Notes under the pieces: generated by a model
Database searches by the model: none
The model's input: the letters and a program-made list of their open reading frames with translations, nothing else
Told to the model about the DNA's origin: nothing
In this document: in pieces, positions 2,652 through 19,782 of the stretch
How the letters are laid out: each line of letters starts with the position of its first letter
Position numbering within the stretch: position 1 is the first letter of the stretch
Program-made: the position numbers and the translations under genes
From: Oscillospiraceae bacterium
GTDB lineage: Bacteria > Bacillota > Clostridia > Oscillospirales > Ruminococcaceae
DNA length: 64,000 bases
Direction: 5' to 3'
Assembly: GCA_017847835.1 (NCBI GenBank)
Contig: JAGASH010000005.1
Coordinates: forward strand, 434,001 to 498,000

Positions 2652-3236
2652 ATGGCAGTTAATCTTTCCAAGGGACAGAGAGTATCTCTTGACAAGTCGG
2701 TTACAATGGCAAGAATAGGTCTTGGCTGGGACATCAACAAATATGACGGCGGAAAGGACTTTGACCTTGACGCGTGCGTTTTCCTGCTCGGAGCAAACGG
2801 AAAGGTTCTCCGTGACGAGGATTTCGTGTTCTATAATAACCTCTCCGCGCGCGACGGTGCCGTTCAGCACACGGGCGACAACCGTACCGGCGAGGGTGAC
2901 GGCGACGACGAGGCAATTATCATCGACTTCACGAAAATCCCTCCGGAAATCGAGAAAATCGCGGTTACTGTCACGATTTTTGAAGCTCAGCAGAAAAATC
3001 AGAATTTCGGTCAGGTTTCAAACTCCTATGTACGCGTTGTGAAAATCGACAGCCCCGACGACCGGAACGGCGAGGAGGTTATCCACTTCGATTTGGTCGA
3101 GGAGTTTTCAATCGAAACCGCGCTTGTTGTCTGCGAAATCTACCGCTACAACGGCGACTGGAAGTTCAACGCTGTTGCAGGCGGCTATCAGGGCGGACTT
3201 GAAGCGCTTTGCAGAAACTACGGCGTAAACGTTTAA
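2652..3236 (+). CDS. terD: TerD family tellurium/stress resistance protein
   Basis: Calcium-binding TerD-family protein, 194 aa, the usual length. Starts at ATG 2652 behind the ribosome site AAGGAG. Hallmarks are the N-terminal [11 protein letters not shown], the core [22 protein letters not shown], and the conserved DDRNGEE turn near residue 135. Acidic residues such as those in DLDA and GDGDDE are of the kind that bind Ca2+ in this family. Members confer tolerance to tellurite, phage or DNA damage, and in Bacillus the equivalents are yceC, yceD and yceE, which sit beside yceG and yceH as here. It probably acts at the inner face of the membrane. The family is certain; the exact stress is not known. 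Confidence 0.95.
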
Positions 3237-3267
3237 TTCACAAAAATCCACAACGGGAGGCGGCGCT

Positions 3268-4497
3268 TTGAACCGTAACATCAATCAAATAATTGACGGC
3301 GCGCTTCCCGGAGCGGAAATTACGCTTCCGGCGGGTGAGTTTGAAGGACCTGTCGTCATCGAAAAGCCGCTCAGAATTATCGGCAAAAACACGACAATCT
3401 GGGCAAAAACCGGAGGAGTTATCGAGATAAAAGCTCCGGGAGTTTCGATTTCGGATATCCGCGCGGAGCTCACCGAAAGCAGCGAAACCGACTGCGCAAT
3501 CAAGACCTTCTTCCCTGCCGATGTGAAAAATGTCGAGGTTCTGGGAAGCGTTTCGGGGTTCGGCTCCGAGGACGGTTTTTTCGACGTGCCGCGGACGATA
3601 AATCTCGGTGATTTTCTCGCAGACGCGGAAAACACGTTTTCGCTCACGGTAAACGTTCCCGAAAAAACCGAGGTTTTCTGCGATATAAGAGAGATTGAAA
3701 TCTCTCCGAAAACGCTGGACGCAGGCAAAAACGAGCTCAGGATAACCGTTCGCGGCATTTCCGAGAAAACGCTTTTGTACGCGGAAATCCTCTTTAAAAC
3801 GCGGTTTGTCCGGCGGATTTACATTATGGGAAAGCCGAAGTCAGACATTCCCGCAGCGGTGAACAAATGCGTTTACACAGCGCCCGAGCGCGATTTCACG
3901 CAGAGCGTTCCTCAGCCGACAGCGACTGCCGAAAGCGATGTTGTTTCGATGACTAATCGGGCTGACAGCGCGCTTTCGCCTCTCGAACTGCAAAAAGGAC
4001 AGCGGCTGTCAATTTCAGGGTACTTAGGTTCGCGGTTTTCCGTGTGGTTCACCTGCGAAAAACCGTTCGGAATGGACATCGACCCGTATGTTTTCCTGCT
4101 CGGTGAAAACGATAAGGCGCTTGACGAGCGAAGTCTGGTGTTCTTCGGAAACGAAAGCTCACCGAACGGTGAAGCGCGCGTTTTCACAAGCGACGGGCAC
4201 ATTGAAATCGACCTCGCGAAAGCCGATTACCGTGTGAAAAAAATCACGCTTGTCTACTCGGTTTACGCGGGAAGCGAGCGAAGCAATTTCTCGCTCACGA
4301 GAAACCCGCGCGTGTCGCTCAGAACCGACTGCGAACGGCTTTCTTATGTGATGAGCGATTTGAAAAACGAAACCACGGCAGTCGCGCTCGAATTTTACCT
4401 CTACAAAGGTGAATGGAAGCTTTCGGTTGTCGGAAGCGGTTATTTCAACGGAATGGCACGGCTTTGCAACGGTTTTGGCATACAAGTTGAAGAATAA
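3268..4497 (+). CDS. Beta-solenoid-like N-terminus fused to a TerD domain
   Basis: 409 aa in the Ter operon, with a TTG start at 3268 set by GGGAGG seven bases upstream. Residues 1 to about 75 (LRIIGKNTTIWAKTGGVIEI and following) look like rungs of a right-handed beta-helix of the NosD/pectate-lyase kind. Residues about 80-190 look like an all-beta middle region. Residues about 240-409 are a clear TerD domain (LEKGQRLSISG-like start, DPYVFLLGENDKALDERSLVFF). The acidic Ca2+ loop is weaker than in the TerD upstream. It may be a scaffold or receptor form of TerD working with the plain TerD, YceG and TelA around it. The TerD part is firm; the N-terminal fold is an inference from repeat pattern only. 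Confidence 0.8.
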   Translation: MNRNINQIIDGALPGAEITLPAGEFEGPVVIEKPLRIIGKNTTIWAKTGGVIEIKAPGVSISDIRAELTESSETDCAIKTFFPADVKNVEVLGSVSGFGSEDGFFDVPRTINLGDFLADAENTFSLTVNVPEKTEVFCDIREIEISPKTLDAGKNELRITVRGISEKTLLYAEILFKTRFVRRIYIMGKPKSDIPAAVNKCVYTAPERDFTQSVPQPTATAESDVVSMTNRADSALSPLELQKGQRLSISGYLGSRFSVWFTCEKPFGMDIDPYVFLLGENDKALDERSLVFFGNESSPNGEARVFTSDGHIEIDLAKADYRVKKITLVYSVYAGSERSNFSLTRNPRVSLRTDCERLSYVMSDLKNETTAVALEFYLYKGEWKLSVVGSGYFNGMARLCNGFGIQVEE

Positions 4498-15521: not shown

Positions 15522-16256
15522 ATGGAAACATTTGAAAAACAGATAATTTACGGAAAAAACGCCGTTATGGAAGCACTGCGCTCGGATAAGGAAATCGACT
15601 CGCTTTTCGTTCAGAAGAACGCAAGCCTCGGAAGTATCATCGACGCGGCGAAAAAACGCGGCGTTCTGATAAAGCAGGTTGCCGAGGAAAAGCTCACGGC
15701 GCTCACGGGTACTCAAAAGCACGGCGGTGTGGCTGTCGAGCTTTGCGCGGGAAATTACTGCGAGGTTGAAGATATCCTCGAAAACGCTCGTCAAAAAGGC
15801 AAGCCGCCGTTTATCATCATCGCCGATGAAATCGCAGACCCGCACAATCTCGGCGCGATTATCAGAACGGCTGAGGCTGCGGGCGCAGACGGTGTAATTA
15901 TCCCGAAAAGACGCTCCGCTTCGCTCAATTCAACCGTGTTCAAGACCTCGGCGGGCGCTGCGGCTTACGTCAAAGTTGCGCGCGTGTCAAACCTTGTCGA
16001 TACGATAAAGCAGCTCAAAAAACAGGGCGTCTGGGTGTACGGAATGGAAGCGGACGGCAAGCCCTACGATAAGGTAGATTTCTCGGGGAGCGTGGCTCTC
16101 GTGGTCGGCTCGGAGGGCTTCGGGCTGTCAAGACTTGTCCGCGAAACCTGCGATATGGTTGTGTCGCTGCCGATGCTGGGAAAGGTAAACTCACTCAACG
16201 CGTCGGTTTCCGCAGGAATTTTGATGTACGAAATCGTAAAATACAGAACTCTCTGA
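15522..16256 (+). CDS. rlmB: RlmB/TrmH (SpoU) family 23S rRNA 2'-O-methyltransferase
   Basis: 244 aa. ATG 15522 has AAAGGAAG just upstream; an earlier in-frame ATG (15483) overlaps the promoter's likely transcription start and is not used. An N-terminal substrate-binding domain (YGKNAVMEALRSDKEIDSLF) is followed by the trefoil-knot SpoU domain: ADEIADPHNLGAIIRTAEAAG (motif 1), LVVGSEGFGLS (motif 2) and SLPMLGKVNSLNASVSAGIL (motif 3). It would methylate a ribose in 23S rRNA (G2251 in E. coli). First gene of a long run of rRNA and tRNA modification genes ending at era. Confidence 0.93.
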   Translation: METFEKQIIYGKNAVMEALRSDKEIDSLFVQKNASLGSIIDAAKKRGVLIKQVAEEKLTALTGTQKHGGVAVELCAGNYCEVEDILENARQKGKPPFIIIADEIADPHNLGAIIRTAEAAGADGVIIPKRRSASLNSTVFKTSAGAAAYVKVARVSNLVDTIKQLKKQGVWVYGMEADGKPYDKVDFSGSVALVVGSEGFGLSRLVRETCDMVVSLPMLGKVNSLNASVSAGILMYEIVKYRTL

Positions 16257-16270
16257 TGGAGGTAAAATAA

Positions 16271-19200
16271 ATGCCGGGAAAAAACTATGATGTAGACGAT
16301 ATTTTAAAGGAAGTTGACTCTCTGCGCAAAAATTCGGACAAGCGCGAAGGTCCTGTCCTCACGGGCTCGCAGAAAAAGTCACCGAAACCCGTCAAGCGTT
16401 CCGCAGAAAAGGATTTGAGCGTTACGCAAATCCTCACGGATATGCCCGAAAAACGCAGCAATTCCGTTGCTCGTCAGCTCTCCGAAAAGCAGTCCGAGGA
16501 ACGTCTGAAAGGCGATATCTCTGCGGCTTTCGACAAGAGAAAGCCCGTTAAAATCACCGATGAGGACGATGTGAAGGAAGCGCGTTCCGCTCGTCAGCTC
16601 ACCGAGCAGGAATACGAGGCGCGCGTTGCCCGCGACATCGACAGGGCGGCTGACGTCAAGCTCTACGAGAAAAACCGCGTGAAGCCGCTCGAAGAAGATA
16701 ACGCAGACACAGCGGAAATCGACAGGTTCTCCGAGCACGTCAGCGCTTTCGTGAAGCCCGATGTTGCCGGAGAGGACGACGACATAATCTTCCACACACG
16801 CGGCGACCTTGTCACCACGGAAACAATGGAAATGCGCAAGCAGCAGAAAATCGATGAAATCAACCGCGCGCTTCTCAAAGTTGACCGTGAGGCACAGTCA
16901 CCCGAGGAAATGCTCGACTCAATCAACCCGATGGAGTCGAAAGAAAAGGTTGCCGATATGTTCAGGGACAGCGACGATACCGATACGCTGACCGTTGCCG
17001 GCGACGATTTGAAGAAAATCTCACGCGGCGGCGAACGCGTCAAGGAATATCAGCCGACCGTTTCCCGTAAAAAAGACATCGACAGCGTGCTGTTTTCAAA
17101 GCCCGGCAAGCAGGCAAAGCCTCTTGTCGGAGAGTTCCACGTCGGCGAGTCAATCGTAGACGCGCTCAACAAGAAAATTGCCGAGGACAACAAGCAGAAT
17201 TACGCGCTTTTCAAGGAGGGCGAGGACCCCGACGAAATCGCGGCTGCCGCTAAGGCTAAACAGGAAGCCGAGGAAGCCGCTGCCAGAGAAAAAGCCGAAA
17301 AGGAAGAACAACTCGAAAAAATCAAAGCGGCAAACGAGCTTGCTCAGAAGAAAATGCGTAAAATCTCGGAGTTCATTCTTGAAAATCCCGAGAATGACGA
17401 AATGCCCGAGCCGGACGACGATGACAAATCGGTTTCCTATGACGATGAAACCGACGAGGCAATCGACCTCGATGATGAAAACGTAATCCGCGACAGACTT
17501 TCGCGCGCTTCAAAAGGTCTTATCAGCAGACTTGTTATTCTCGGAGTGCTCTTTGCGATTACGCTTTTCGTGGCAATCGTAAATATCGCAAACCTCAACG
17601 TCGGCTCGCTTATGAACATAATCAGCCTGCGCCGTTCTCCCGAAAATTACCTCTACACCCACCTCACAATCGGAATTTTGTCGTTTGCGGCTTGCTCGTC
17701 TGTAATCACAAACGGCTTCTCACGGCTTGCAAAGCTGCGTCCCGACGGCGACACGCTCTGCGCGTTTGCTCACACCGCGTCAATCCTCGCGCTTATCCCC
17801 TACCTGATTTACGGTGAATATATCCAGCGCAGCTTCTCCCACGTTTACCTGATGATTTCGCTCGGTCTGCTGTGCTTCAACACGATTTCCAAGCTGATTA
17901 CCGTCAGAACCGCGAAAAAGAACTTCGCGTTTACCTCGGGAAACGGCGCAAAATACTTTATCGAGCGCTGCGACGGTGACGGTGCTGAACAGCTTGCAAA
18001 GGGCACGGTTTCGGGCATTCCCGTCATTTCCTCAATGCGCAAAACCGAAATGCTTTGCGACTTTATCGTTTCAACCTACTGCGAGGACGCGTCCGACAGA
18101 ATTCTCGGCAAAAACTCGGTTGTCGCGCTTATTGCGTCGATAATCGGCGGTGTTGTCGCGTTTTTCATCGAGGACGGCGGCGCTGTGAGAAATCTGCCGT
18201 GGGAAACGATTGCGCTCAACAAGCTCTCGTGGGGAGTTACCGTGATGACGGCAATTCTCTGCCTCGGTGCAGCTTTCTCCTGCTCTATGGTTGTGACTCT
18301 CCCGCTGCTGATGTCAGCGAAAAAGGGCAAGTCGGACAAGTTTGCCGTGCTCGGATACGGAGCAGTCGAGCAGTTCAGCGAAACAAACGCTGTGCTTCTT
18401 GACGCGAAAACGATTATTCCGCCGAGCGCTGTCAAAATCACAAACATCTGCGGCTACAACAAGCCCGGAAATCGCGGAGAGGGCAAAGTAAACGTCGACG
18501 AGGCTATTATCTATGCAGCAAGCCTTGCCGTAAAATCCGACAGCGTAATGGCTGACGCGTTTTTCAATATGCTCGGCTACAAGCAGGAGCTTTTGAAGCC
18601 CGTAAGCGGCATTGTGTACGAAAACAGCCTCGGTGTTATGGGCTGGATTGACCGCAGAAGAGTGCTTCTGGGCAACCGCGCTCATATGAAAGCGCACGAA
18701 ATCTCCGTTCCGAACGTCAAGAAAGAAATGGCGGCAAACGTCCACAACGACGAGGTTCTTTACCTCGCGGTAGGCGGAGAAGTGTGCCTGCTGTTTTTCG
18801 TGGAAATCACCGCCGACAAGGCTGCCCGCGAAAATGTCGAGGAGCTCTCGCGCCGTGGTGTATCGCTGATTGTCAAGACCGTGGACGGTATGATTACAAG
18901 CTCGGTTATCGCGGATTTGTTCCGTCTTGACGAGAAATCGGTCAAGATTATTCCGTTTGAAAACCACGAAAACTTTAACAATCACACGCAATTCACTCCC
19001 CGCGGTTCAGCCGCATTCTGCTGCGACGGAACGCTTGCTTCGTTCACAAGCGCAGTATGCACCGCGAAATCGCTCAAAACCCGCATTACAATCGGCTGTA
19101 TTATGCAGCTTTTCGGCGCGGCTCTGGGAGTTCTGCTGGCATTCATTTTTATGTTCTTCTCGAAACACGAGCTTTTCAGCGAGATTAACATTCTGATTTT

Positions 19201-19309
19201 CAATCTCGCTTGGACAGCGCTTACGCTCGGAGTTCAGATTTTGCTCGGAATTTCCGATAAGCTGTCGAAAAAGTTCAGAAAATCCAACGAGCAGACCGTT
19301 GAACAATGA
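16271..19309 (+). CDS. Degenerate P1B-type P-ATPase-like membrane protein (likely pseudoenzyme)
   Basis: 1012 aa. Residues 1 to about 415 are charged and probably disordered; they hold two imperfect repeats starting ARQL (67-95 and 107-139) and a Glu/Ala-rich coiled-coil stretch (about 330-370). The rest has the layout of a P1B ATPase: four membrane helices (about 418-545), a small A-like domain (about 548-617), two helices (about 617-682), a large cytoplasmic domain, then two helices (about 938-994). The aspartyl site DKTGT is here DAKTI (Asp711). The N-domain has VLLGNRAHM, as in copper pumps. TGD is replaced by KTVD, and GDGxND is absent. ATP-driven transport is therefore unlikely. Ribosome site GGAGG precedes ATG 16271; the stop overlaps tadA by four bases. 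The fold is an inference from motif order. Confidence 0.75.
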   Translation: MPGKNYDVDDILKEVDSLRKNSDKREGPVLTGSQKKSPKPVKRSAEKDLSVTQILTDMPEKRSNSVARQLSEKQSEERLKGDISAAFDKRKPVKITDEDDVKEARSARQLTEQEYEARVARDIDRAADVKLYEKNRVKPLEEDNADTAEIDRFSEHVSAFVKPDVAGEDDDIIFHTRGDLVTTETMEMRKQQKIDEINRALLKVDREAQSPEEMLDSINPMESKEKVADMFRDSDDTDTLTVAGDDLKKISRGGERVKEYQPTVSRKKDIDSVLFSKPGKQAKPLVGEFHVGESIVDALNKKIAEDNKQNYALFKEGEDPDEIAAAAKAKQEAEEAAAREKAEKEEQLEKIKAANELAQKKMRKISEFILENPENDEMPEPDDDDKSVSYDDETDEAIDLDDENVIRDRLSRASKGLISRLVILGVLFAITLFVAIVNIANLNVGSLMNIISLRRSPENYLYTHLTIGILSFAACSSVITNGFSRLAKLRPDGDTLCAFAHTASILALIPYLIYGEYIQRSFSHVYLMISLGLLCFNTISKLITVRTAKKNFAFTSGNGAKYFIERCDGDGAEQLAKGTVSGIPVISSMRKTEMLCDFIVSTYCEDASDRILGKNSVVALIASIIGGVVAFFIEDGGAVRNLPWETIALNKLSWGVTVMTAILCLGAAFSCSMVVTLPLLMSAKKGKSDKFAVLGYGAVEQFSETNAVLLDAKTIIPPSAVKITNICGYNKPGNRGEGKVNVDEAIIYAASLAVKSDSVMADAFFNMLGYKQELLKPVSGIVYENSLGVMGWIDRRRVLLGNRAHMKAHEISVPNVKKEMAANVHNDEVLYLAVGGEVCLLFFVEITADKAARENVEELSRRGVSLIVKTVDGMITSSVIADLFRLDEKSVKIIPFENHENFNNHTQFTPRGSAAFCCDGTLASFTSAVCTAKSLKTRITIGCIMQLFGAALGVLLAFIFMFFSKHELFSEINILIFNLAWTALTLGVQILLGISDKLSKKFRKSNEQTVEQ

Positions 19310-19782
19310 ACGAAAATATAACTCTTTCCTCTGTTCTCACGGACGAGGAATATATGGAAAAAGCGCTTGAATTAGCGCAAAAGGCTGCCTCGCGCGGGGA
19401 AATTCCCGTGGGAGCGCTTGTCGTTGACAAGAACGGAAAAATCATTGGCGAGGGCTTCAACAGACGCGAGGAATTGCAGTCACCGACAGCTCACGCAGAG
19501 GTTCTCGCAATTGAACAGGCAGCGAAAACGCTGAAAAACAGACGGCTGCTTGACTGCACGCTTTACGTCACGCTGGAGCCTTGTCCGATGTGTGCGGGAG
19601 CCGTGATGAACGCGGGACTGAAACGGCTTGTCTACGGAGCGTTTGACGATAAAAACGGAGCCTGCGCTTCCGTGGCAACCCTCTTTGACGAGAAATTCAC
19701 GCATATTCCTATGGTGAGAAGCCGTGTTTTAAAGGAACGCTGCGGAGAAATCCTGTCGGAGTTTTTCAAGGACAAAAGATAA
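19306..19782 (+). CDS. tadA: tRNA adenosine-34 deaminase
   Basis: 158 aa zinc deaminase that makes inosine at the wobble position of tRNA-Arg(ACG). The zinc site is complete: HAE at residues 63-65 and PCPMC at 92-96, with Glu65 as proton shuttle. The segment MNAGLKRLVYGAFDDKNGA is typical. The ATG overlaps the stop of the preceding ATPase-like gene by four bases, so translation is coupled. The first 15 residues are a little longer than in E. coli. Confidence 0.95.
   Translation: MNENITLSSVLTDEEYMEKALELAQKAASRGEIPVGALVVDKNGKIIGEGFNRREELQSPTAHAEVLAIEQAAKTLKNRRLLDCTLYVTLEPCPMCAGAVMNAGLKRLVYGAFDDKNGACASVATLFDEKFTHIPMVRSRVLKERCGEILSEFFKDKR

Follow-up and report, generated by a model that had tools for sequence, protein, structure and literature searches.

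The open reading frame at 16271-19309 of the window, the 64,000-nucleotide stretch of Oscillospiraceae DNA analysed here, almost certainly encodes a conserved pseudo-P1B-ATPase, a protein built like a heavy-metal pump and devoid of the pump's catalytic motifs. The limits of the frame are exact (ATG at 16271, TGA stop at 19307-19309), and its features are collected in Table 1. The initial annotation had described the frame as lying in phase and coupled between rlmB and tadA, and this is the arrangement found, with a start 14 nt past the rlmB stop and a four-base overlap with tadA. The window's left end (about 1-2500) carries a gene for a canonical P2-type ATPase, part of a 942-residue frame in the genome, in which DKTGT and GDGxND are both present.

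Table 1. Features of the pseudo-P1B-ATPase gene and its immediate neighbours, in coordinates of the window.
Feature	Positions	Strand	Basis
rlmB, 23S rRNA G2251 2'-O-methyltransferase, sole conserved neighbour	15525..16256	+	TIGR00186, 4.2e-73
Spacer between rlmB and pseudo-ATPase, 14 nt, with GGAGG ribosome-binding site	16257..16270	+	Sequence
Pseudo-P1B-ATPase, 1012 aa	16271..19309	+	ORF, sequence matches, AF2 model, Foldseek, VIA-align
Acidic, largely disordered, predicted cytosolic tail, residues 1-420	16271..17530	+	AF2 pTM 0.17, mean pLDDT 61.8
N-terminal short linear motif YDVDDILKEV, residues 6-15	16286..16315	+	Motif counts against shuffles
ARQL duplication, copies from residues 67 and 107	16466..16651	+	Local alignment
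Helices TM1-TM4 (MA, MB, M1, M2)	17501..17935	+	Model m6844e0edb2c8, hydropathy
Remnant A domain, 51 residues (canonical 109), without TGE	17936..18088	+	Alignment, domain lengths
Helices TM5-TM6 (M3, M4); CPC metal site replaced by SCS	18089..18337	+	Alignment, model
Degenerate phosphorylation site, DAKTI for DKTGT	18401..18415	+	DKTGT in 0/119 relatives
N domain, invariant G788 and G801, HP motif lost	18455..18811	+	Alignment, dN/dS
TVD for TGD	18878..18886	+	D872 kept in 117/119
About 32 P-domain residues with GDGxNDAPAL missing (approximate point)	18985..18997	+	Length, alignment gap
Helices TM7-TM8 (M5, M6)	19034..19303	+	Hydropathy, model
tadA-type tRNA adenosine deaminase, neighbour within the genus only	19306..19782	+	ATGA overlap with pseudo-ATPase

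A P1B-type fold without catalytic motifs

Pfam returns no match to the protein above cut-off, and matches to copper P1B ATPases are weak but clear (NCBIfam 1e-11, PDB 3rfu 3e-9). Its structure was predicted with AlphaFold2 for the core, residues 411-1012, from an alignment of 69 sequences. The resulting model (m6844e0edb2c8; mean pLDDT 90.5, pTM 0.84) shows a full P1B-ATPase fold closest to CopA and ATP7B. The top Foldseek match is Legionella CopA (LpCopA 4bbj, E 3e-18), and VIA-align gives Z scores of 21.8 to ATP7B and 20.9 to LpCopA with the whole model covered. Hydropathy and the model agree on a layout of 4 + 2 + 2 transmembrane helices, the first at residue 421, such that four helices, a small domain, two helices, the P and N domains and two final helices follow one another in a P1B-like order. 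The pump-like helix layout initially read from the letters is thus borne out, and the comparison with CopA yields the P1B fold, not one unrelated to P-type ATPases. Because the number of helices before the P domain is even, the N-terminal tail and the pump lobes fall on the same side of the membrane.

The protein thus shares with the P1B-type heavy-metal ATPases (CopA, ATP7B; TIGR01525) the eight-helix layout and the fold of the P and N domains. It differs from them in lacking the catalytic and metal motifs, in an A domain that is halved, in the missing GDGxND segment and in carrying, instead of metal-binding domains, a long N-terminal tail with a motif of its own. We scored these motif columns in an alignment of 119 distinct relatives, with 16 canonical pumps as controls. 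All 16 controls keep DKTGT, GDGxND, TGE and CPC; in none of the relatives is either DKTGT or GDGxND present. Orthologues with these motifs intact, which the initial annotation would have counted as a refutation, did not turn up, and the result supports a pseudoenzyme derived from a P1B pump. DAKTI lies at the column of DKTGT, as the initial annotation had it, and the residue at the position of the phosphorylated aspartate is D in 59 relatives and E in 26. The reported absence of GDGxND likewise reflects a real deletion, since these columns are gaps in 119/119 relatives and the later half of the P domain counts 74 residues where canonical pumps have 106. The claimed loss of TGD holds for its glycine, which does not figure among the residues usual at that position across the family; the threonine (95/119) and the aspartate (117/119) are retained.

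Besides these three motifs, the HP histidine, CPC and TGE have been lost. Of the 119 relatives, 118 have a gap at the T of TGE. At the CPx metal site the 16271-19309 product has SCS, and the corresponding columns are mostly A, P or F across the family. The YN metal-site residues are also replaced, by varying small or hydrophobic residues. From what is established for the superfamily, a protein without these motifs would be unable to run the known P-type cycle. Motif and segment loss in all 119 relatives, set against the intact controls, shows that this is a pseudoenzyme family and not a single broken gene.

Distribution and selection

Within the order (Oscillospiraceae and kin), which is probably Oscillospirales in the GTDB sense, 297 genomes were sampled, and 291 of them give a strong full-length match to a profile of the core. 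Even the weakest of the 291 (G333) lies beside rlmB and has no DKTGT. Named matches include Oscillospiraceae and Ruminococcaceae metagenome-assembled genomes as well as the cultured Caproiciproducens and Anaeromassilibacillus. In a sample of the class outside the order the family was not found: the matches there reach no further than about 1e-40 and are confined to the region that ordinary pumps share, and the best 16 of them have all motifs intact. A sample of the phylum likewise contained no family member outside the order, the seven matches below 1e-45 all coming from within it. In a tree, 31 representatives group together, apart from 18 canonical P1B pumps, with weak rooting and support. 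The same genome also carries two canonical P1B pumps, which makes the pseudo-ATPase an additional, diverged paralogue.

Comparison with three relatives gives dN/dS values of 0.09-0.14 for the whole protein, 0.115-0.116 for the tail and 0.024-0.062 for residues 720-840, in the N-domain region, which shows purifying selection. The N domain is among the most conserved parts of the protein, and the transmembrane helices are less conserved than it is. These values, together with frames intact across hundreds of genomes, refute a decaying pseudogene or assembly artefact, for which the chance is practically nil even though two relatives are interrupted (L032 by an in-frame stop, L046 by a frameshift).

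The N-terminal tail and the rlmB neighbourhood

The long, charged and disordered N-terminal extension of about 415 residues noted initially is confirmed by the low model confidence given in Table 1 and by its composition, which is acidic (D+E 25%, K+R 18%). In relatives the tail ranges from 22 to more than 600 residues. Its best-conserved part across the order is a motif near the start with the consensus F/Y-x-hydrophobic-D-D/E-I-L-x-E. The strict motif occurs in 41 of 119 tails and in no shuffled sequences, and its relaxed core in 78 of 116 (shuffled mean 0.4); in some relatives it is missing or altered. We also considered whether this might be a general N-terminal motif of Oscillospiraceae and rejected the idea, since a degenerate DNA pattern of the motif matches mostly the pseudo-ATPase gene, once per genome. 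The duplicated ARQL repeats that had drawn attention at the outset are real (alignment score 55, maximum 45 in 1000 shuffles) but are not conserved even across the genus, where A[RK]Q[LFST][TS]E appears twice in six of 21 tails, once in six and not at all in nine; the conserved element of the tail is the N-terminal motif.

The proposed conserved rlmB-tadA setting stands for rlmB and fails for tadA. We compared 20 loci from 20 other families, with core identities of 15-29%. In 19 of them rlmB is the gene immediately upstream, in the same orientation; in L048 this place is taken by a gene for the GTPase Obg. Among 80 contig loci, rlmB is upstream in all 74 that have upstream DNA, although in two of these (L202 and L206) two genes are inserted between the pair. 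The inserted genes (L202:1008-2684 and 2711-4057, similar in L206) encode low-complexity, charged or proline-rich products without a Pfam match, and look as if they were a split-off tail. Most spacers between rlmB and the pseudo-ATPase are short: 104 of 137 loci fall between -20 and 60 nt, a count that uses script-inferred start codons and includes some loci twice. The RlmB of the window passes TIGR00186 at 245.8 bits against a cut-off of 160, and unlike its membrane-bound neighbour is a soluble enzyme. By contrast with rlmB, tadA and a MATE gene lie downstream only within the genus, and tadA, comM and MATE, all limited to the genus, were rejected as conserved partners.

Genes of translation (EF-G, YebC, Era, Obg, RqcH, MetRS) are often seen beside the pair (L032, L044, L045, L047, L048, L050, L185, L202, L207). 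Of the six genomes without a strong pseudo-ATPase match, five are not explained by a contig end, and these five have no full RlmB match either. The double absence is seen in G092 and G150 (both of the same genus), G115, G127 and G247. Co-loss was not accepted as a functional link, because the genes are adjacent and a single deletion or assembly gap explains both absences.

Possible functions of the pseudo-ATPase

A sensor, scaffold or regulator built from a dead pump had been inferred initially; among these we favour a scaffold or tether. Our reading is of a non-catalytic membrane scaffold or tether that derives from a P1B metal pump and became fixed in one order, and, taken with its mechanism, we give it about an even chance. 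Eight helices would anchor the protein in the membrane, with the tail and the pump lobes in the cytosol. The reduced P and A domains would be unable to drive the pump cycle, and the rigid body, above all the N domain, may have been retained as a docking platform from which the flexible tail could extend and capture a partner through its conserved N-terminal motif. We infer this tethering role, whereas the fold, the family-wide motif loss, the purifying selection, the conservation across the order, the rlmB link and the conserved tail motif are computational results. Given the linkage to rlmB, the candidate partner to consider first is RlmB or the maturing 50S subunit; that the dead pump tethers specifically RlmB or the maturing large ribosomal subunit is, in so definite a form, unlikely. 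Adjacency to rlmB can persist through shared expression alone, and the conserved N domain and TxD could reflect ligand binding instead of docking. The very short tail of a few relatives (about 22 residues in L044) and the absence or alteration of the motif in others also argue against a tether.

The ligand-binding reading takes the protein as a sensor, in which a nucleotide or some other ligand would bind to the N domain and to what is left of the P domain, and the tail would receive the change of shape. The high conservation of the N domain, with glycines 788 and 801 invariant, and the near-universal TGD aspartate speak for such a sensor. However, nearly all relatives have S or G in place of the HP histidine, which contacts the nucleotide in P1B pumps, and most have lost the first glycine of GxG; we consider a sensor unlikely, though still to be weighed.

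The pseudo-ATPase may also serve another P-type pump as an accessory subunit, or pair with a second dead pump in one complex, a reading we find quite unlikely. It draws on the coexisting canonical P1B pumps and on a second dead pump of P2 type, encoded in the same genome outside the window (819 aa, G000:C8:196923-199379; L229:424-2880, minus strand), which has EKEGA for DKTGT and no GDGxND. This second protein occurs in 35 of 37 genomes of the genus, in a few of them in pieces; none of the 30 examined has DKTGT or GDGxND, and nearly all have EKEGA at the DKTGT column. It resembles the pseudo-P1B-ATPase in being a P-type relative without these motifs, and differs in being P2-type, in having no long tail and in its separate locus. 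A further point for this reading comes from two other families, where dead pumps of P2 type are encoded immediately before rlmB (L047:8554-10764, minus strand; L046:1940-4408, plus strand), in the order dead P2, rlmB, dead P1B; these are too diverged from the genus protein to be called orthologues. Against a pump complex, the P2-type dead pump is not established beyond the genus and these two families, and the pseudo-ATPase is not stably linked to a gene for any active pump. A search of open-licence papers returned no description of either dead pump.

An ATP-independent channel, carrier or scramblase formed by the helix bundle would agree with the retention of all eight helices. We find this distinctly improbable, since CPC and YN have given way to varying small or hydrophobic residues and conservation is lower in the helices than in the N domain. 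There is very little to recommend a sporulation protein, which the spore-forming habit of the order might suggest. Spo0A is too widespread to discriminate here, and we used spoIVA, a spore coat morphogenetic gene, which is present in 281 of the 297 genomes of the order. However, 15 of the 16 genomes without a spoIVA match keep the pseudo-ATPase, and five of the six without a strong pseudo-ATPase match have spoIVA, which makes a sporulation gene unlikely. An active pump with unusual catalytic residues is scarcely credible: an acidic residue is often found at the phosphorylation position, but the K and G of DKTGT never occupy their columns save in one G-free pattern, the TGE and GDGxND segments are absent, and the motif losses and domain lengths led us to reject it.

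P-type ATPases are usually regarded as pumps. A P1B family that spans a whole clade under strong constraint, yet has none of the catalytic motifs, shows that the fold has taken on a role other than pumping across an order of abundant gut bacteria. Confinement to this order makes the pseudo-ATPase a marker gene, and homology-based annotation may misread it as a copper exporter. The link to rlmB offers a concrete, testable entry to its function. If the dead pump does tether RlmB or the maturing large ribosomal subunit, the less likely form of our reading, the P-type ATPase fold would have been reused across the whole order to bring the maturation of ribosomes, or translation, to the membrane.
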